Assembly (NCBI GenBank): GCA_903856085.1 | Contig: CAIOAT010000004.1 | Span: 84,722-131,122, forward strand | Length of the DNA stretch: 46,401 bases | Direction: 5' to 3' | Source of the DNA: Candidatus Omnitrophota bacterium | GTDB taxonomy: Bacteria > Omnitrophota > Omnitrophia > Omnitrophales > Aquincolibacteriaceae | Notes under the pieces: model-generated | What the model saw: the letters and a program-made list of their open reading frames with translations, nothing else | Told to the model about the DNA's origin: nothing | The model's database searches: none | Translations under genes and position numbers: made by a program | Part shown: positions 1 through 46,280 of the stretch, piece by piece | Layout of the letters: every line of letters starts with the position of its first letter | How positions within the stretch are numbered: position 1 is the stretch's first letter

Positions 1-2897
1 AGGAGCTGCCTCGCGCAGCGCAGACGCTTCTCGAAAAACTCGAAGAGATCGACGCGGAGGCCTGGGGACGATTCCTGGGCAACAAAACATGGGATTGGAA
101 GACGTTCCGGGATTTTAAGGATTGGAGCGCCCTTTATAAAGGAAAGCGGAAAGCAGGATGGAAAGAGTGGCGCGCGCTTCTGGAGGATCTTGCGGCGCTT
201 CGTCTGGGGCCGCTTGCCGCACCCTGGAAGGAAAAATTCGAATCTCTGGCGCTTGCTTTCGAGGCGGCCTATAGCGCCAAAAAAAAGGAAAAAGGCTTTT
301 TGGATTTTGATGATCTGCAGATGAAAGCCGTGAAACTTTTCCGGGGGGAGAAACCAGCGCTCCGTAAGCTTCGGCAGCGATATCAGCGTAAATTCAAATT
401 CATCCTGGTCGATGAATTCCAGGACACAAACTTTCTCCAGATGGAATTCGTCGAACTTCTTTCGTCCGGAAACAATCTTTTTATGGTGGGCGATTTTAAA
501 CAGTCGATCTACGGGTTTCGCGGCGCGGAACCGGGGATCTTTCTTGCCAAAGAAAAGCTTTATGCGGATGGCGTGGAAGGGGAGCGGATCTTTCTCGTTG
601 AAAGTTTCCGTAGCGATCCTCCCGTGCTTGATTTTGTGAACGGGTTCTTTAAAACACTTTGGGCGGAGGACCCTTTTCCTTTTGAGCCGCTTGTTGCGAA
701 CCCTTCCACGCTCCGGAGGTGTGAGAGTGTGCCGGCGGTTGAAGTGCTTGTGACCGAGCTGAAAGAAGATGAGGATATGCGCTGCGCCCGTCTGCGTGAG
801 GCCCGGGCGATCGCGGCACGAGTCTGTGAGCTCCATGAAAAAGACAAAATCCCGTATGGTGATATCGCGGTGCTTTTTCAGGCCATGACCTTGAGCGGTA
901 TCTATGAGGACGCGTTTAAATCCGTCAGCGTGCCTTACTTTATTGTTGCGGGCCGTGGATTTTACGAGCAGCCAGAGATCCAGGACATGATGAGTTTTCT
1001 TTCACATCTTGAGAGGCCGCTTGCGGATATTCCTCTGGCCGCGACGCTTCGCTCTCCGCTTTTCCATATCACGGATGACACACTATTTTGGCTGTCCCGT
1101 CAGGCTAAGGAAAAGCATGAAGACGCACCTCTTTATCATGCGGTGAAAACGTTTGAATCTGTCAAAGAGATCTTTCCCGATCAAAGGACACGCCTTGAGG
1201 CATTCTTGAGACTTAGGCGCGCGCTGGGGGATCTCAAAGACCGGATCCCGCTTTCGGAATTGATCGACAAAATACTCGAAGGTACGGGCTATGAGCTTTC
1301 TGTTCTCATGGACCCGAGAGGTGTGCGCCGGTACGCGAATCTCAAGAAACTCATTGCCATGGTGAGGGAATACGAGACCTACGAACGAATGTCGCTTGCA
1401 GCTTTTTTGAATATTCTGAAGCGGCTGAAGGCTCAAGAGGTTCGCGAATCCGAGGCGCAGATCGCGCTTGAAACGAGCGTGGAGGCGGTGCGCATGATGA
1501 GCGTGCACGCGGCCAAAGGCTTGGAATTCCCGGTTGTGTTCGTGGCGGACATGGGTCATCAAGGGTCGCGGTCGGATTCCAAGGCAGTGATCGCCCATGC
1601 GGCGGATGGTTACGCCATGCAGGTGCCCGATGAAAATGATTCCCAGATGCAAAAGCCCTATTTTTTTCAGTGGGTAGACCGCGAGATTGCCAAACGCGAC
1701 GAAGAAGAATGGAAGAGGCTTTTTTATGTGGCGGTAACGCGTGCGAAGTCGCGTCTTTTCTTAAGCGGCGTCCATAAAAAGAAAAAAGAGGCCAAAGAGA
1801 ATTACCGGGAAATGGCTTCCTGGATGGATTGGGCTATGGCAATTTGCGAGGAGCTTCCGGTCCTTGCTCAAGATTCTCTTAAAGGGTTGACGAGGACTGC
1901 CCCCACTTCCACGGCGTCGGGTATCGGGACGGTCAAAATATCTCACGACATCGAATATCCGGTGGAACCGCGCGGCCGGACGAAAGAAGATCTCCGCGAG
2001 AAAGTGGAAGTTGCCATAAGAAATATGAAATGGAACAAAAATGCTTCTTTGGGGCACGGGGAACACGGGTCGGGTTCTTTATCCCCCCGCAGCATCGATC
2101 TTCCGGTTTCGGCGTATGTGCTTTTCCAAAAAGATCCTAAGGAGTTTTGGCGGACGTATCAAGTTGGCTGGACGGTCCTTGCCCAGGATTCTTTTGAAGG
2201 GCTGACAGGGACCGCCCCAATTTCTGCTACGCAAAAATTGACAAGTATTGGGACGGTCGGGGAGAACGAGTGGGTTGGCGAAGGCGCGATTTTTAGAGAA
2301 GATGATTTTTCTGCCGCTGATTTTGGCACGGCGATGCATGGATTTTTTGAACATCTGGAGTTTGAAAAGCCCGAACGCTTTCTGGAGCCACAGGCGCTGG
2401 AGCGTGTTTTCGGCCGTTTTGGAAAAGATGCCGTAAGCGACGCGAAGAAGATCATTCAAGATTTTATGAAACAGCCGATTTTTCACGAGCTTGGAAAAGC
2501 CAAGCAGGTCAAACGCGAGATCGATTTTGTGTTAAACGAGCGACGCGGGCTCATCCATGGCAAGATCGATATTTTGTTTGAGGACGGGAAAGGCCAGTGG
2601 CATATCTTGGATTACAAGACTGCAGCGGGTGATGAAGAGGCGGCTCGTAAGAGCGCTTACGATCTTCAGCTGGAGATTTACACGCTCGCGGCCGAGAGGA
2701 TTCTGAAACTTCCGGTTCGTTCTGCTATTATTTACTACCTCAAAAATCAAAAAGCTGTGACGCTGCCGTTTCCCGCGGAAAAGTCCGGAGCTTTTTTCGA
2801 TGGCCTGGAGAAGAAAATCTGCGCTCTGCAGCAGCAGATCCTTGATTATTCCAACGGGCGGATGACAGAAGAGTCTGAATTAAAGGAAGTCTTATGA
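1..2897 (+). CDS. AddA/UvrD-type ATP-dependent helicase-nuclease, 5' end cut by window
   Basis: The reading frame is open from base 3, so about 964 residues are visible and the N-terminus lies outside the window. Superfamily 1 helicase motifs appear in order: DEFQDT (Walker B/motif II, about residues 137-142), GDFKQSIYGFRGA (motif III), SFRSDPPVL (IV), MSVHAAKGLEFPVVFV (V) and FYVAVTRAKSRL (VI, about 577). A RecB-type PD-(D/E)XK nuclease follows, with FGTAMHGFFEHL (about 774), GKIDILF, LDYKT and a Q...Y motif (LQLEIYTLA). The family processes double-strand DNA ends for RecA-dependent repair, usually with an AddB partner, which may be upstream. Between helicase and nuclease domains are two related inserts (about residues 620-644 and 725-752) that match intergenic palindromic repeats of this genome. 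The stop overlaps the next ATG (ATGA). AddA versus another UvrD-nuclease fusion is not settled. Confidence 0.88.
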   Translation, partial: ELPRAAQTLLEKLEEIDAEAWGRFLGNKTWDWKTFRDFKDWSALYKGKRKAGWKEWRALLEDLAALRLGPLAAPWKEKFESLALAFEAAYSAKKKEKGFLDFDDLQMKAVKLFRGEKPALRKLRQRYQRKFKFILVDEFQDTNFLQMEFVELLSSGNNLFMVGDFKQSIYGFRGAEPGIFLAKEKLYADGVEGERIFLVESFRSDPPVLDFVNGFFKTLWAEDPFPFEPLVANPSTLRRCESVPAVEVLVTELKEDEDMRCARLREARAIAARVCELHEKDKIPYGDIAVLFQAMTLSGIYEDAFKSVSVPYFIVAGRGFYEQPEIQDMMSFLSHLERPLADIPLAATLRSPLFHITDDTLFWLSRQAKEKHEDAPLYHAVKTFESVKEIFPDQRTRLEAFLRLRRALGDLKDRIPLSELIDKILEGTGYELSVLMDPRGVRRYANLKKLIAMVREYETYERMSLAAFLNILKRLKAQEVRESEAQIALETSVEAVRMMSVHAAKGLEFPVVFVADMGHQGSRSDSKAVIAHAADGYAMQVPDENDSQMQKPYFFQWVDREIAKRDEEEWKRLFYVAVTRAKSRLFLSGVHKKKKEAKENYREMASWMDWAMAICEELPVLAQDSLKGLTRTAPTSTASGIGTVKISHDIEYPVEPRGRTKEDLREKVEVAIRNMKWNKNASLGHGEHGSGSLSPRSIDLPVSAYVLFQKDPKEFWRTYQVGWTVLAQDSFEGLTGTAPISATQKLTSIGTVGENEWVGEGAIFREDDFSAADFGTAMHGFFEHLEFEKPERFLEPQALERVFGRFGKDAVSDAKKIIQDFMKQPIFHELGKAKQVKREIDFVLNERRGLIHGKIDILFEDGKGQWHILDYKTAAGDEEAARKSAYDLQLEIYTLAAERILKLPVRSAIIYYLKNQKAVTLPFPAEKSGAFFDGLEKKICALQQQILDYSNGRMTEESELKEVL
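1859..1934 (+). repeat. Palindromic element copy A, in frame inside the helicase-nuclease gene
   Basis: This 76 bp segment has two nested inverted repeats. GTCCT...AGGAC bounds the left half, with inner CAA...TTG. The right half runs from ACTGCCCC to GGGACGGT. It encodes VLAQDSLKGLTRTAP and what follows, and is read in the same frame as copy B 315 bp downstream. The arrangement matches intergenic palindromes elsewhere in the window. It sits in the linker between helicase motif VI and the nuclease domain. Confidence 0.65.
2174..2258 (+). repeat. Palindromic element copy B, in frame inside the helicase-nuclease gene
   Basis: This 85 bp segment has perfect arms GGTCC/GGACC with inner GCCC/GGGC, then ACCGCCCCAAT paired with ATTGGGACGGT. 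The second half shares the blocks CCCCAAT, GC, ATTGA and GTATTGGGAC with the intergenic copy at 40996-41040. It encodes VLAQDSFEGLTGTAP and what follows, closely related to the peptide of copy A. No stop codon is introduced. Confidence 0.7.
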
Positions 2898-16833: not shown

Positions 16834-18260
16834 AGTTTATCTCGCTACCTTTTTTTGTGTTTTTCGTGGTCGTCTATGGTTTATATCTGCTATGCAACCA
16901 CCGGCGGCAAAACAGGTTGTTGCTTGTCGCGAGTTATGTGTTTTATGGCTCTTGGGACTGGAGATTTCTGGTCTTGATCTTTGCGTCGACCGTCTTCAAT
17001 TACTTCTGCGGATGGAAGATCGACGCTTCTGCAAACGCGAAGGAAAAAAGAGCGTTCTTGTGGCTTTGCGTTTTAGCGAATTTGACGGTTTTGTTTTTTT
17101 TCAAATATTATCATTTCTTTATAGACGGGCTGTCGGACCTTTCCTCTCTCGCGGGTATTACCTTGCCGATGCGTTTCTTAGAAGTCGTTCTTCCGGTGGG
17201 GTTGTCTTATTACACGTTTCAGGCCATGTCTTATTCGATGGACATCTATCTGAGAGGGTTGAAACCTGTACGTAATTTCTTTGATTTTTCGCTCTTTGTT
17301 TCTTTTTTCCCCAATTTGCTGTCGGGTCCCATAGAAACTGCCCGGCATTTTCTCCCGCAGATTCTTTCTCCTCGGATTGTAACCCTGGAAAAGTTCTACG
17401 AAGGGTGCTATTTGATATTTTGGGGTATTTTTCAAAAAGCTTTTGTCGCGGACAATCTGCTGAAGATCATCACTCCCTTTTTTAATTCCGCCGCGCCCTA
17501 TAACGGCACCCAGGTCTTATTTTCCCTATATGCGGTTGCCATTCAGGTTTTTTGCGATTTTTCCGGATATACGGATATCGCCAGGGGATTGGGAAAATGC
17601 ATGGGGTTTGATCTCAAACTGAATTTCCGGTTACCCTATTTTGTGACTAACATCGCGGATTTCTGGAAAAGATGGCACATGAGTTTCTACGGATGGCTTA
17701 AGGATTATGTCTATATGCCGCTGGTGTTCAGAGCCAAAGAGAAAACCGAGTTTGTGATCTACCGGAGCATGTTCATCATTATGGTTCTGGCGGGGCTGTG
17801 GCATGGGAGTTCCGTGAGGTTTTTGCTGTGGGGCATTTATAATGGCCTGCTTGTGGTGGGGTATCGGTTGCTCCAGCCCGCACTTCGGAAGATCCCACTG
17901 CCTAGGAAGCCCCTCCTCAGGGACGTGTGGTTTGTTATAAGAGTGATTCTTTTTTTTCACCTCGTTTGTTTCGGGATCATCTTGTTCAAAACAAAATCCG
18001 TTGCTCAAGCGTTGCAAATGCTTCAAGCGCTATTTCTGAATTTCAGTTTCGATCTTTCAAGCGCGATGATGCTATACAAAGTGGCTTTTTTCTGCCTTCC
18101 TCTTCTAGCGATCCAGCTCCTGCAATTTTCAAAAGATGATCTGCTCGCTGTTTTGAAGATCAATCCATGGCTCAGGGGATTGATCTATTTTTACTTGTTC
18201 CATCTTATGATGGTGTTTGCCTTCACAGGCGGAAATCAATTTATTTATTTCCAGTTTTAG
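16830..18260 (+). CDS. MBOAT-family membrane O-acyltransferase (AlgI/DltB-like)
   Basis: A 476-residue polytopic membrane protein, about 10-12 helices. Family hallmarks are FWKRWHMSFYGWLKDYVYMP, the re-entrant segment of AlgI/PatA/DltB proteins, and GLWHGSS with the catalytic His at residue 325. The N-terminus (YLLCNHRRQNRLLLVASYVFYGSWD split over two helices) is standard for AlgI-like proteins. It should take an acyl group from the cytoplasmic carrier and pass it across the inner membrane. Translationally coupled upstream (ATGA) and followed after 10 bp by an SGNH gene, the same partnership as DltB-DltD and AlgI-AlgJ. Confidence 0.93.
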   Translation: MKFISLPFFVFFVVVYGLYLLCNHRRQNRLLLVASYVFYGSWDWRFLVLIFASTVFNYFCGWKIDASANAKEKRAFLWLCVLANLTVLFFFKYYHFFIDGLSDLSSLAGITLPMRFLEVVLPVGLSYYTFQAMSYSMDIYLRGLKPVRNFFDFSLFVSFFPNLLSGPIETARHFLPQILSPRIVTLEKFYEGCYLIFWGIFQKAFVADNLLKIITPFFNSAAPYNGTQVLFSLYAVAIQVFCDFSGYTDIARGLGKCMGFDLKLNFRLPYFVTNIADFWKRWHMSFYGWLKDYVYMPLVFRAKEKTEFVIYRSMFIIMVLAGLWHGSSVRFLLWGIYNGLLVVGYRLLQPALRKIPLPRKPLLRDVWFVIRVILFFHLVCFGIILFKTKSVAQALQMLQALFLNFSFDLSSAMMLYKVAFFCLPLLAIQLLQFSKDDLLAVLKINPWLRGLIYFYLFHLMMVFAFTGGNQFIYFQF

Positions 18261-18270
18261 GAATTTTCTT

Positions 18271-19359
18271 ATGCAGAAAGACGCACATGTTTTTTATTTT
18301 AGAGGGATGCCCTGGGCTTTGGTCGGGGCGATTCTTTTAAGTCTTTTGTTCCAGCAAGTCGTTCGGGAGATGCCAGCGTTTTGGCGATTTTGTTATCTCT
18401 ATAGCAATTCTTACACGGATGATTTGTTGAGAGTGGAAGCACAGCTCAATATGATCCCGGGGAACGATCGGCGTCCGAGGGTTTTTATTCTGGGGTCCAG
18501 TTGTGCCAAGAGGGCTTTTGATGTCAATTATTTGACCCATGCATTTCTGAAGGAACACTTGAGTTTTTATAATCTAGGCATTGCCCAAGCGGGTAGTTCC
18601 ATCAACGTATTAATGCAGAAGCGTATGTGGCTCGAAAAAAATCCCGCGATGGTCATTTATATGTTGAAGCCGTACAATTTTTACCAGGAGGAGTATAAAT
18701 TTGACGATGCGCGTTCCTTCGATCCTTCGGTCTTGCCAGTTCTTGTTAAATATCTTGGATATCAAAGATTCTTTTCGAGGTGGACGGTTTTCGTAAGATT
18801 TTACTTGAAGGAAATTTCTTTATTTTATAAGTATAGCAATTTTTTCTCAAGGAGCATCATGCAGGTGGGGATGAGCTGCTTGACTGGGAAAAAAATGCCT
18901 CGGTCGGAGTTGTACCCGCGCGACAGATATCTTCCGCAAGCCTATTTGCTGGATCGGATCAATAGGATGAGCGAAGCGGAGGTCGCGCAATTCAAGGAAA
19001 ACAAATACTCCGCATTGAATAAGGAATGTTTTTGTTTGTTTGCCAAGGACTTGGTTGCAAGGGGAATCAAGCTAGTTGTCGTGAATGCTCCGGTGCATCC
19101 TGTGTTAAATTTAAAAGTACATGGTAATCGGCGCTTTGTGGAAAAATGGGGTTCTGCCTATGACAATTTTTTGCAGAACCAATCAAGGAAAATCGGCTTT
19201 GCCTATGTGGACGCGGAGAGTCTCCCCGATTTGGATGAGACTGATTTTGCGGATACTTTTCATTTGAATCAAAAGGGTAGGGCTGCGTTCTCTCAATTCA
19301 TAGAAAGATATTTGTCAGGTCATTTGCCATCCTCTGCAGGATACAAGAGTGCGGATTAG
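18271..19359 (+). CDS. SGNH/DltD-like membrane-anchored protein, copy 1
   Basis: A 362-residue protein with a single N-terminal membrane helix (about 15-31, WALVGAILLSLLFQQ) and an outward domain. SGNH-hydrolase blocks are present: FILGSSCAKRAFD (Ser76/77 nucleophile region), YNLGIAQAGSS, VNAPVHPV and the C-terminal DTFHLNQKG with Asp328 and His331. This layout matches DltD, AlgJ and AlgX proteins, which complete transfer of an acyl group from the MBOAT protein to an extracellular polymer. The ATG at 18271 is chosen because it directly precedes the anchor. It is paralogous to the gene at 19742. Confidence 0.8.
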   Translation: MQKDAHVFYFRGMPWALVGAILLSLLFQQVVREMPAFWRFCYLYSNSYTDDLLRVEAQLNMIPGNDRRPRVFILGSSCAKRAFDVNYLTHAFLKEHLSFYNLGIAQAGSSINVLMQKRMWLEKNPAMVIYMLKPYNFYQEEYKFDDARSFDPSVLPVLVKYLGYQRFFSRWTVFVRFYLKEISLFYKYSNFFSRSIMQVGMSCLTGKKMPRSELYPRDRYLPQAYLLDRINRMSEAEVAQFKENKYSALNKECFCLFAKDLVARGIKLVVVNAPVHPVLNLKVHGNRRFVEKWGSAYDNFLQNQSRKIGFAYVDAESLPDLDETDFADTFHLNQKGRAAFSQFIERYLSGHLPSSAGYKSAD

Positions 19360-19590: not shown

Positions 19591-19741
19591 TTTGGCAATC
19601 CGGCTTTCACTATTTTTAAAAACAATAATTCATTAGCGGTTTGAAGGTCATCAGGGGATGGGTTCATTTTGGCGCATCCTTAAAGGGTGTTTACGTCCGG
19701 GGATAGAATCAATTTATTTATTTCCAGCCTTGGGAATTTTT
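19591..19741. other. Duplication junction and MBOAT tail remnant
   Basis: Non-coding. The left part shows no recognisable gene. From about 19703 the sequence copies the last bases of the MBOAT gene and its spacer (TCAATTTATTTATTTCCAG, then GGGAATTTTTATG), bringing the ribosome-binding context of SGNH copy 2. Confidence 0.75.
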
Positions 19742-20833
19742 ATGAAGAAAGATTCGCAGGTATTTCATTTTAGAAGGATGCCCTGGGCCTTGATCGGGGC
19801 AATCCTTTTAAGTCTTCTATTCCAGCAAGCCGTTCGGGGGACACCGGCGTTTTGGAAATTTTGTTATCTCCATAGGGGGGAGGGTCTGGGAGAGGTCTTA
19901 AGGATGGAGGCGGAGCTTGATAGGCTTCCAGCGAGCAATCAGAATTCGAAAGTTTTTCTTTTGGGGTCCAGCTGCGTTTTCTTTGGTTTGGATGTGAATG
20001 CTCTGGACAAGGCGTTCGCAATGGATCATCTGAACTTTTACAATCTGGGTCTGGGCAATGCGGCTTATCCCGTTAACGCGTTCATGGAGAAAAGCGTATG
20101 GCTCAAAAAAAATCCTGCAATAGTTATTTATATGTTGAACCCCCGCAATATATATACAAACACACTTTTTTTCGATTCGGCGCGTTCTTTCGATCTTTCG
20201 GTTCTGCCCTATCTTGTTCGATATCTAGGCTATCGTGAGGTCCTGTCGAATTGGAAGATCTTCGTGGGGGCTATTTTTGAAAAGTTCTCTTTATTTTATA
20301 AATATAAAGATTTTTTTTCGTCGTTTATTATCGGGCCATGGATCAATAACTCCGCCCCAGAGACGATCGCTCAAACTGATCTGGGGTGGGAGCATAGCGA
20401 ACATCGTTCTCAAGCCCCATTGGTCGGACCGGATAAAAGGGTAGGGAAAAATAGGGCCACCGGATCCAGGGAGAACGGGTACACCGAGCTGAATAAGGCC
20501 TTATTCAGCGTATTTGCCAAAGACTTGGTCGCGAGAGGAATCAAGCTGATCGTCGTGAATGGCCCGTCGCATTTTCTTTTAAAGTTGAACGCTCGTGCTC
20601 GCAGGCGTTTTGTGGAAAAGCTAAGCTCTACGTATAGCGAGTTTTTGCAGAGACAGTCAAGGGAGATAGGATTTGCCTATGTGAATGCGGAGAGTCTTCC
20701 GGATTTGGATGAGACTTGTTTTTCGGATGCTGTCCATTTGAATCAAAAGGGCAGAGCTATGCTCACTCAATTTATAGAAAACTATTTGCATAATTATTTA
20801 TCACTCCCTGTAGGGTACAAGGGTGCGGACTAA
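19742..20833 (+). CDS. SGNH/DltD-like membrane-anchored protein, copy 2
   Basis: A 363-residue paralogue of the previous SGNH protein. It keeps the anchor (WALIGAILLSLLFQQ), the Ser block VFLLGSSCVFFGLD (Ser76/77), YNLGLGNAAY and the C-terminal DAVHLNQKG (Asp329, His332). It has a diverged middle (about 200-240) richer in Pro, Glu and Arg. Frame and catalytic residues are intact, so it is likely functional and perhaps altered in acceptor preference. The start at 19742 is chosen by alignment with copy 1. The sequence from 19658 to 19741 in the same frame is duplicated MBOAT tail, not protein. The stop overlaps the recJ ATG (TAATG). Confidence 0.8.
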   Translation: MKKDSQVFHFRRMPWALIGAILLSLLFQQAVRGTPAFWKFCYLHRGEGLGEVLRMEAELDRLPASNQNSKVFLLGSSCVFFGLDVNALDKAFAMDHLNFYNLGLGNAAYPVNAFMEKSVWLKKNPAIVIYMLNPRNIYTNTLFFDSARSFDLSVLPYLVRYLGYREVLSNWKIFVGAIFEKFSLFYKYKDFFSSFIIGPWINNSAPETIAQTDLGWEHSEHRSQAPLVGPDKRVGKNRATGSRENGYTELNKALFSVFAKDLVARGIKLIVVNGPSHFLLKLNARARRRFVEKLSSTYSEFLQRQSREIGFAYVNAESLPDLDETCFSDAVHLNQKGRAMLTQFIENYLHNYLSLPVGYKGAD

Positions 20834-27639: not shown

Positions 27640-27813
27640 TCCGAAAAGCCTATTTTAAAAGGGCAGGAGTCTTGTAAAATCCGGATTATGTGTTAGGCTT
27701 TGGGCAGATTCAGGCTTTTTAAGTTTTAAGAAAAACTGGTTTTTGGAAAAAGTTTCTTCGAGTGAGGCTTCGCACGGGACGGCAATCCTTACCGCGAGCT
27801 CGAAAGGGCTCGC
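27640..27813 (+). other. Gap after truA with nested inverted repeats
   Basis: No gene seen. AAGCCTA near 27647 and TAGGCTT near 27694 are perfect 7 bp arms, followed by CAGGCTTTTTAAG, which may end truA transcription. CCGCGAGC...GCTCGCGG (27792-27815) is a perfect 8 bp hairpin with an 8-base loop. Confidence 0.4.
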
Positions 27814-27900
27814 GGATCCAATAGTGATCCATTACCACGAAGCCGTAATGGGGAATGCCCAAGCTTCCCCTGTAGAAAAGAAATAAGAAGTTTGGGCGGT
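27814..27900 (-). repeat. Composite palindromic element copy E1
   Basis: The left half has CCATTAC/GTAATGG arms and the layout of the minus-strand F half (GGATCCAATA...GAAGC...GGGG). The right half is a 41 bp hairpin, GCCCAAGCTT (27857-27866) pairing with AAG..TTTGGGC. The right half matches copy E2 (shared CCC, GAAAAGAA, AGTTTGGGCGGT). Confidence 0.7.
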
Positions 27901-28600: not shown

Positions 28601-28999
28601 ATGACCGCTCCCGCGACACTTATGTATGCTACCGGACGCCGTAAAACCGCCATTGCCCGCGTATGGGTTTTCCCGGGACAAAAAGGTTTTATCGTCAACG
28701 GGCAGGACTCCGCGAAATATTTGAAGCGCGCGAATCTCCAGACGCTTGTTGAGCAACCGCTCAAATCTGCAAACCTTCTCGGTCAGGTACGTGTCCGCGC
28801 CCGTGTTCAAGGCGGCGGAGTGGCCGGCCAGGCAGGTGCAATCCAACTCGGGATCGCTAGGGCGCTTGTGGGTCTCAACCCCGAAATGCGCGCGACCATG
28901 CGCAAGGGCGGTTTTATGACCCGTGACCCCAGAGAAAAAGAAAGAAAGAAACCGGGTCGTAAAGGCGCTCGCAGAAGCTTCCAGTTCACGAAGCGTTAA
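28601..28999 (+). CDS. rpsI: 30S ribosomal protein S9
   Basis: A 132-residue S9. Its YATGRRKTAIARVWVFPG, FIVNG, GGGVAGQAGAIQLGIARAL and the basic tail ending SFQFTKR, which reaches the P-site tRNA, are diagnostic. Second gene of the operon. Its TAA overlaps the next ATG by one base (TAATG). Confidence 0.98.
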   Translation: MTAPATLMYATGRRKTAIARVWVFPGQKGFIVNGQDSAKYLKRANLQTLVEQPLKSANLLGQVRVRARVQGGGVAGQAGAIQLGIARALVGLNPEMRATMRKGGFMTRDPREKERKKPGRKGARRSFQFTKR

Positions 29000-29208
29000 T
29001 GCGGTTCCAATACCTTTCAATTTCAGAAAATCTGAAATTGGGGCCGTCCAAACTACCCTTTTGGAAAAGAAGTAAAGAGTTTGGGCGGTCGTTGTTTCTC
29101 GGCCTGCTTTTTCTCGTGCTTGTTTTCGTTCTGACCGGTTGCCAAGGATTTTTGGACGATTACAACTACCATCCTGTTGGGCCGATGCAGTCCAGTCCGA
29201 ACCAGTGA
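28999..29208 (+). CDS. Very small lipoprotein with repeat-encoded N-terminus
   Basis: A 69-residue predicted lipoprotein, not recognised. A hydrophobic run (about 32-46) ends in lipobox VLTGC with Cys48, followed by only about 20 mature residues (QGFLDDYNYHPVGPM...). The ATG overlaps the rpsI stop (TAATG), giving translational coupling. Residues 2-31 are encoded by a palindromic element (29003-29090), which supplies the positive region (KRSKEFGR) before the hydrophobic stretch. Without it only the weak TTG at about 29092 remains as start. It could be a real co-opted gene or a chance frame; the clean lipobox favours the former. Confidence 0.55.
   Translation: MRFQYLSISENLKLGPSKLPFWKRSKEFGRSLFLGLLFLVLVFVLTGCQGFLDDYNYHPVGPMQSSPNQ
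29003..29090 (-). repeat. Composite palindromic element copy E2
   Basis: The left half (GGTTCCAATACC...GAAATTGGGGCC) matches the reverse complement of the copy at 40996-41040 at GGTYCCAATACC, TCAAT and ATTGGGGCCG. The right half is the CCGTCCAAACT/AGTTTGGGCGG hairpin (29044-29088). It starts three bases after the rpsI stop. Confidence 0.8.
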
Positions 29209-40957: not shown

Positions 40958-41040
40958 CCGCCCGAGTCTTTCTTTTTATGAAGGGCGACTTGGGCGGCCC
41001 CAATCTCAGCGTTGCTTCGATTGATTGGTATTGGGACCGA
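40958..41040 (+). repeat. Composite palindromic element copy E4-F1
   Basis: Left half CCGCCCGAGTC (40958-40968) pairs with GACTTGGGCGG (40987-40997). The right half CGGCCCCAAT pairs with ATTGGGACCG. This is the best intergenic match to coding copy B (GAAGGGC, GGG..., CCCCAAT, ATTGA, GTATTGGGAC), and its right half is nearly identical to 45421-45466. Confidence 0.8.
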
Positions 41041-45302: not shown

Positions 45303-45351
45303 ACGCCCGCTTGTAACTAAAAGATTGGCAAGCATTTACCTATCCCAACTT

Positions 45352-45466
45352 TAAATTTCTTTGTAGGCGTGGTGGTTGGGACGGCCTTGATTCTTATTTT
45401 GTTTTCCTGAACGGTCATCGGGGCAGCCCCAATCTCAACTTTGCTTCGATTAATTGGAATTTGGAC
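45352..45466 (+). repeat. Composite palindromic element copy E5-F2
   Basis: Left palindrome TCCCAAC (45353-45359) / GTTGGGA (45385-45391), whose minus strand matches E2 (CCGTCC.AAC.ACC...AAAGAA). After about 25 bases comes the F half (45421-45466), nearly the same as 40992-41037: GCCCCAATCTCA, TTGCTTCGATT, ATTGG, TT.GGAC. It ends one base before the dapF ATG and may supply its ribosome site. Confidence 0.75.
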
Positions 45467-45467
45467 T

Positions 45468-46280
45468 ATGAAAAACTCTATTTCTTTCTACAAAATGGTC
45501 GCTTCGGGGAATGATTTCGTGGTGGTGGATAATCGCCGCGGGGTCGTGAAGGACGCGGTGGCATTTACCAGGAAGGTTTGCCAGCCGCACCAGGGGATTG
45601 GAGCGGACGGAGTGTTGCTTTTTGAGAGCTCCAAGAAGGCGAATTTCAAGATGCGGATCCTGAATCTGGACGGATCGGAAGCCGCAGCGTGTGGGAACGG
45701 GTTTCGCTGCATCGCGCGTTATGCTCATGATATTTTAAAATATTCTTCGCGTATGAATTTTGAATCCGGGTCGGGGCTGATCGAAGCCGAGGTTGGCCCC
45801 AAGGACAGTGTCAGAGTCCAACTCATGAAGCCGCGTATTTTTGAGATGGACGGTGTTCTCGAGGTGCGCAAGCACAAGTGGCACTTTGCTTTTCTTGATA
45901 CCGGCGTGCCACATGTGGTGATTTTCGTGAAAGATCTCGAGACGGTCGAGGTTTTTGAAACCGGGAAGGCAATTCGGAATCACGCGCATTTCCAGCCGTT
46001 TGGGACGAACGTGAATTTTGTTGAAGTGAACGGGAAAAAAGAGATCGCGGTCAGGACGTATGAGCGCGGCGTGGAGAATGAAACGCTCGCGTGCGGTACA
46101 GGCTCTACGGCGTCGGCCGTGATGAGCGTTCTCAAAGGATATGCCGAATTGCCCGTTAATGTGCTGACAAAAAGCGGTGAGAAGCTTCGGATCGATATGC
46201 AAAGAAAAGGCGATGAGATCACGAAAGTTTTTTTAGAAGGTAAAGCCCAATTCGTCTACAAAGGGGAATATTTTTTATGA
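45468..46280 (+). CDS. dapF: Diaminopimelate epimerase
   Basis: A 270-residue epimerase converting LL- to meso-diaminopimelate with two active-site cysteines: Cys75 in ACGNGFRC and Cys209 in LACGTGS. It also has YKMVASGNDFVVVDNR at the start, HQGIGADGVLLFE and FEVNGKKEIAVRTYERGVE-like sequence. The ATG at 45468 follows palindromic element F2 directly; the nearest ribosome-like site (GGAA, 45457-45460) lies in the element. A TTG at 45441 in the element is a less likely start. The stop overlaps dapA (ATGA). Confidence 0.95.
   Translation: MKNSISFYKMVASGNDFVVVDNRRGVVKDAVAFTRKVCQPHQGIGADGVLLFESSKKANFKMRILNLDGSEAAACGNGFRCIARYAHDILKYSSRMNFESGSGLIEAEVGPKDSVRVQLMKPRIFEMDGVLEVRKHKWHFAFLDTGVPHVVIFVKDLETVEVFETGKAIRNHAHFQPFGTNVNFVEVNGKKEIAVRTYERGVENETLACGTGSTASAVMSVLKGYAELPVNVLTKSGEKLRIDMQRKGDEITKVFLEGKAQFVYKGEYFL

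Follow-up and report, generated by a model that had tools for sequence, protein, structure and literature searches.

Palindromic repeats that are translated as parts of proteins have been described in several bacteria. In Rickettsia the palindromic elements known as RPE lie in frame within genes, one listed RPE-4 insert having a length of 84 (PMC3767692), and in Wolbachia WPE-like elements occur in frame in addA (three sites), addB and priA (PMC4224334). In addition, the intragenic REPs surveyed by Di Nocera et al. (2013) are distributed in several phyla and in many repair genes, including uvrA, uvrB, the UvrD/REP helicase and recBCD; Omnitrophota are not mentioned in that survey (PMC3733652). 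As for the choice of target, IS608 inserts directly 3' of a short target that is kept in its left flank, and guide bases 5' of a hairpin pair with the target and with the end cleavage sites (PMC5934647), while in one REP system the dinucleotide at which cleavage occurs depends on the tag (PMC8266576). Furthermore, QMITE1 and QMITE2 of Coxiella are short mobile elements with about 50 copies, and QMITE1, which has short direct repeats, overlaps annotated reading frames in many cases; they differ from the element discussed here in their size of 150-400 bp and, as far as the part of that report considered here goes, no internal triplet rule is described for them (PMC5896051).

The present analysis concerns a stretch of 46,401 nucleotides (the window) from the genome of a Candidatus Omnitrophota bacterium (G000), in which a sequence-only reading had noticed palindromic segments translated within a helicase-nuclease. 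That reading referred to protein-invading palindromes from Rickettsia, which is correct, but they are not confined to that genus, as the reports on Wolbachia (PMC4224334) and on several phyla (PMC3733652) make clear. Like RPE and WPE, which are repeated palindromes of about 100 bp lying in frame in unrelated proteins and lacking stops, the Omnitrophota element is present in many copies and is inserted in frame in unrelated proteins that have insert-free homologues. On the other hand, going by the published descriptions, it is set apart from them by its phylum and by two adjacent hairpins with covarying arms, and it uses both strands and several frames and has a CNN...MMG...CNN match. Moreover, RPE-bearing positions are largely common to the spotted-fever rickettsiae (PMC3767692), whereas the presence of the Omnitrophota element varies among sister species. 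The GTAG/CGTC REPs are likewise palindromes which are mostly intergenic, sometimes in frame, often in repair genes and in some cases within other palindromes (PMC3733652). However, REPs are single hairpins of 20-40 bp that carry an invariant GTAG or CGTC tag, whereas the Omnitrophota element is about 84 bp long, has two hairpins, ends in TA, CG, TG, CA, AG or GG, and has a tag-like triplet that varies with the target. The phenomenon itself is therefore known. What looks new is the three-way triplet rule, together with the family, the phylum in which it occurs and the density of verified cases; a literature search, scant in subscription journals, gave no paper on such repeats in Omnitrophota. 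Translated, protein-invading palindromes are thereby extended to this phylum.

Copies A and B in an AddA-type gene

The host gene (positions 3-2897, forward strand, with its start upstream of the window) encodes an AddA/RecB-type UvrD helicase joined to a PD-(D/E)XK nuclease; its open frame on the contig is 1159 aa, and its Pfam matches are UvrD-helicase (1.4e-31), UvrD_C (6.1e-32) and PDDEXK_1 (3.9e-13). Two related palindromic segments, copy A (1859-1932, +) and copy B (2174-2256, +), are indeed translated in one shared reading frame of this gene, as had been claimed. The sizes of 76 and 85 bp given at that time refer to real segments, but the net insertions are slightly smaller, namely 72 bp (24 codons) for A and 81 bp (27 codons) for B. 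With the covariance model described below, A scores 42.3 bits (E 4.8e-8), and it has GG at each end, within CGG triplets, and a partly eroded second hairpin (HP2); B scores 78.2 bits (E 1.8e-16) and has GG at each end and the internal triplet CCG. The peptide of A is VLAQDSLKGLTRTAPTSTASGIGT, between LP and VKI, and that of B is TVLAQDSFEGLTGTAPISATQKLTSIG, between GW and TVGE; an example of the predicted insert-encoded peptides is VLAQDSFEGLTGTAPISATQK. In the alignment of homologues both sites fall in poorly conserved stretches of AddA. The flexible linker that had been supposed is not the only kind of place taken, since a copy in a sister species splits the conserved FGTA-MH stretch of the nuclease. 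An AlphaFold model of positions 1503-2894 has a mean pLDDT of 43, with values below 50 in the stretch that holds both inserts, so the model is uninformative on the shape of the inserts.

Homologues without inserts align unbroken through sites A and B. The junctions are clean at both sites and occupancy is patchy among sister species; moreover, the peptides are not shared by unrelated bacteria, which would have spoken against an insertion, since the carriers belong to the same genus or to one neighbouring genus. G000 has both A and B, G001 has A and a B shortened through a deletion between TTGACAAG repeats, G004 has A only, and G003 and G025, the latter of another genus, have B only, while AddA of G002, G016, G021, G023 and G024 is without A and without B. 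The site of copy A is one clean gap in G002, G003, G005, G016, G025 and others, and copy B is not at its AddA site in G002, G004, G005, G016 and G021. G005, which groups as the sister of G000 in an AddA tree with support 0.94, lacks both A and B and has instead a third copy in frame (copy C, L148:4427-4537), which lies between FGTA and MH of the nuclease and has the triplets CAG (left), CCG (middle) and CAG (right). This patchy occupancy, including that of the sister G005, means that gain, loss or exchange has taken place within the genus. For G000 and G025, identity is 88% in copy B and 67% in the flanking gene sequence, so that independent and younger insertions at this one site in the two genera are favoured. 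The genus offers a rich natural experiment, as its six species differ in occupancy and show exact empty sites, nested copies and subclasses of target.

Genome-wide family and anatomy of the element

The covariance model was built from 19 copies of G000 itself, including A, B and two of the four intergenic copies of the window, so that the scores of the window copies are partly given by construction. In the 2.36-Mb genome it gave at least 74 matches at E<=0.01 and at least 101 at E<=1, with E down to 1e-19, these counts being lower bounds because 150 of 738 candidates were scored with the model. Although the model is partly self-trained, the excess of the repeat also stands on a model-free DNA search, in which copy B as a plain query found 26 places at E<=10, 17 of them below 0.01 including B itself. 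The genome scan with a covariance model, which had been suggested as a check, accordingly bears out the expected excess, and in-frame coding copies were found in seven other conserved proteins. Most copies are intergenic. In the window, the four intergenic copies formerly placed at 27814, 29003, 40958 and 45352 were all recovered by the model with new bounds: 27813-27898 (-, CG class, 49.8 bits, E 8.1e-10), 29002-29087 (-, CG class, 85.5 bits, E 3.6e-18), which is directly downstream of rpsI (28601-28999), 40959-41039 (+, CG class, 68.1 bits, E 4.3e-14), and 45383-45468 (+, 58.1 bits, E 9.1e-12), which is upstream of the next gene and is preceded by a weak partial hairpin at 45343-45381 (13.3 bits). 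The copy at 40959-41039 is nested within the hairpin AATTTCCG...CGGAAATT, which resembles HP2 of another copy. An Rfam search of the window gave only a tRNA, and no family matches the element. Tandem arrays of the element or a variant, with units of about 79 and about 85 bp, were observed at G000:C10:39023-39421 (L131) and at L275:35-375 (G004:C181), the G004 array being at a contig end.

Among the 58 genomes searched, including G000, the six of the genus all have the element in abundance (at least 16 to at least 78 scored matches each), and three other genera of the family (g12, g17 and g18) have it at low copy number; the other genomes searched in the family, order, class and phylum gave no element at E<=0.001 with stricter filters.

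The layout of the element is [CNN] TCC-hairpin 1-GGA [MMG] CCCAAT-hairpin 2-tail-GGGA [CNN], the full element of about 82 nt standing directly after the CNN triplet. The commonest net insertion, found in 73 of 169 copies, is 84 bp, that is, 28 codons, and the frame is kept, which explains the tolerance of the element inside genes, essential and repair genes included. In 60 non-redundant ungapped 86-mers, 85.9% of the stem positions form standard pairs, compared with 71.7% (maximum 73.6%) after shuffling of the 3' letters among copies and no more than 50.5% with slid partners, where copies and not events are counted. Several stem pairs in these 86-mers occur as three or more standard types, i.e., the changes are compensatory, and in some G004 copies the arms of hairpin 2, AATTTCAA and TTGAAATT, are wholly replaced by TCCCGCC and GGCGGGA with the pairing kept. 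Some copies are nested, lying at C-CG or C-AG within hairpin 2 of another copy.

In-frame copies in other proteins

The G000 copies inside open frames were listed, the proteins named and aligned with the same genes of nine relatives, and frames merely running through a copy near the gene start (upstream of SWIB-like, ThiE-like and permease-like genes) were excluded from the insertions. Eight further in-frame inserts were found in this way, in NadE, DusB, KdtA (two), RlmD, RnfC, UvrC and UvrA. The relatives are without almost all of them, the gaps being 28 residues in nearly every case, and the clean gaps at the insert sites of AddA and the other proteins measure 24-28 aa. The NadE insert is also present in G005 and the first KdtA insert in G001, and the others are found in G000 only among the nine relatives. 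Further in-frame copies are present in RecG (a nested pair), GltX and an aminoacetone-oxidase-family flavoprotein of G005 and in gamma-glutamyltransferase and, at another site, RnfC of G004, these additional hosts being named through family models or resemblance alone. In recG of G005 (L296:1045-1130) the copy within a copy lies between two RecG helicase blocks and the whole is still open. The host proteins probably still work, as judged from their open, conserved frames. At the site of the G000 RlmD copy, rlmD of G005 (L241) has a different, longer in-frame insert, which may be another palindromic family.

Since the inserts are on both strands and in several frames, the peptides are different and unrelated. 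The most frequent one, from the opposite strand, is (A/T)VPIPINx...GAV....K.KV(W/G)A. Another subtype, which has C-AA/AAG ends and encodes the peptide KPHSPSKESKVNGASPGNL..ENG.QGK, was observed as an in-frame insert of UvrA, gamma-glutamyltransferase, GltX and an iron-sulfur protein (L107:691-776; G000 uvrA, G000:C12:11244-11328; L288:396-480; L292:1320-1404), and KdtA has a divergent copy with C-AA/AAG-type ends. TA is the commonest end class and is seen in none of the verified in-frame G000 copies; it would bring TAG or TAA in some frames. In the shared inserts, change at third codon positions does not markedly exceed that at first and second positions, in contrast to the flanks: for copy B of G000 and G025 the values at the three codon positions are 0.93, 0.89 and 0.81 inside the insert versus 0.75, 0.80 and 0.47 in the flanks, such comparisons covering 15-27 codons each. 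Without an excess at third positions, the inserts give no hint of selection acting on the peptide.

Repair genes account for three of the eight copy-hit genes in G000 (addA, uvrA and uvrC), and recG and addA are hit in G005. This suggests a parallel to the repair genes hit in other phyla; alternatively, genes that are long, non-essential and multi-domain may just be favourable places for insertions to accumulate. The choice of sites, the absorption of inserts of about 28 residues by proteins and the hitting of repair genes across unrelated phyla (addA here and in Wolbachia) become approachable with the six species of the genus.

Triplets, empty sites and the mode of insertion

Empty sites have a single CNN, in AddA at site A (CCGGTCAAG) and site B (GGACGGTT) as well as in RnfC (GGCGCGGAG), UvrC (AAGCCGATT) and UvrA (GGGCAAGAA), and filled sites have a copy of the triplet on each side, so that in these cases one outer triplet existed before the insertion. 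In 155 copies, the modal classes of left NN, middle triplet and right NN are TA-TTG-TA (37), CG-CGG-CG (15) and TG-CTG-TG (9), and rarer ones are CA-TGG-CA (4), AG-CAG-AG (4) and GG-CCG-GG (3). The left and right dinucleotides are equal in 90 of the 155 copies versus 29.6 expected (0 of 20,000 shuffles), and in 123 of them the left NN follows a C. Among 117 copies that are non-redundant and non-tandem, each of the three pairs of triplets is associated (left-middle, 226.6 versus 97.0, 6 of 5000 shuffles; right-middle and left-right, 0 of 5000 each), where the shuffles are a guide and not exact probabilities because the copies share descent; the dinucleotides adjoining the triplets in the flanks of the 117 non-redundant copies show no association. 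Three-way agreement was found in 58 of 130 copies, and partial agreement as right = middle in 20, left = middle in 14 and left = right in 10; the disagreements are thus spread over all three positions, as mutation from a three-way match would give.

Given the repeat family with covarying stems, the in-frame insertions missing in relatives, the empty sites with one CNN and the three-way match of triplets, the whole is best explained, very probably, if A and B arose by insertion of a palindromic element that has two hairpins, is mobile and non-autonomous, and belongs to one Omnitrophota genus. Each insertion beside a CNN would usually add 84 bp, or 28 codons, and on landing in a stop-free frame would give an extra peptide of about 28 residues with the frame intact; copies in surface loops or linkers would survive selection and the rest would be lost. 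The element would move in hairpin form, probably single-stranded, and the internal MMG may help to choose the CNN target like the guide sequences of IS200/IS605. It can be proposed further, as a tentative idea with somewhat less than an even chance, that the element is a self-guided miniature single-strand transposon in which MMG reads the CNN target and both of its own ends, the triplet subfamilies correspond to different targets, and a natural 84-bp peptide inserter repeatedly enters DNA-repair genes. MMG is 5' of hairpin 2, in the manner of the IS608 guide and the GTAG of REPs (PMC5934647, PMC8266576), and if the triplet rule is a guide, the subfamilies would represent a natural series of retargeted elements. 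In contrast to IS200/IS605, however, there is a triplet and not a tetranucleotide, and a single internal triplet would serve both ends. A rule of full Watson-Crick pairing between guide and target was tested and fails for A/T at N1: N1 and M2 match in the Watson-Crick sense only in the C-G and G-C classes, the remaining classes being T-T and A-A, and the rule must therefore involve more than simple base pairing. The triplets of copy C of G005 fit a plain duplication better than a guide.

Such a duplication would be expected if the element were of the MITE type and mobilised by a classical DDE transposase with a 3-bp CNN target duplication, the internal triplet having no part in targeting and covarying only as the closer of the hairpin base. 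This would produce the same ends, one CNN in empty sites and two in filled ones, with matching left and right dinucleotides, and would suit copy C with its CAG on both sides and internal CCG. Nevertheless, the internal triplet should then be independent of the target triplet, yet the two are associated at the level given above; the disagreements look like the decay of a three-way match, and long terminal inverted repeats are not seen in the alignments. Because the middle triplet covaries, a simple 3-bp duplication is less likely, and we regard a DDE-type origin as possible but rather unlikely. The strong conservation of the stems and the position of some copies directly downstream of genes such as rpsI might instead indicate that the copies are structured RNA or DNA elements with a regulatory function (in mRNA stability or termination, or as gyrase sites) for which they are selected within the gene; this is improbable, for no Rfam family matches, occupancy is patchy among sister species, and copies lie in both orientations at unrelated genes. 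Still less credence can be given to peptides exapted as functional segments of AddA and the other proteins under amino-acid selection. A and B do use the same frame and similar peptides recur in AddA of several species, but other proteins use other frames or the opposite strand and hence have unrelated peptides, the inserts show no marked excess of variability at third codon positions, and sister species exist without the inserts. Finally, chance palindromes or an ordinary variable linker, to which the poorly conserved surroundings of A and B might have pointed, are refuted by the genome-wide family (E to 1e-19), the compensatory stems and the exact empty sites.

The mobile element preferred here differs from IS200/IS605 and from REPs with an associated REP tyrosine transposase gene (RAYT) in that no Y1 transposase (Y1_Tnp, PF01797) was found in G000; none was found in the copy-bearing G023 either, and only a marginal match in the copy-rich G004, for which reason no link of the element with a Y1 mover is claimed. 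Some relatives, among them G002, G003 and G005, have Y1 genes, with a clear copy nearby in one only: in G003:C27 (L319) a Y1-like gene at about 1258-1929 lies between a full copy (1037-1120), about 140 bp away, and a degenerate copy (2215-2262). This proximity is a single case and may be due to chance. Elsewhere in the window, two adjacent paralogous ORFs (18217-19359 and 19658-20833) of 380 and 391 aa, without a Pfam or NCBIfam match, are located between a DltB-like MBOAT gene and recJ, and their repeat blocks are 73-83% identical.
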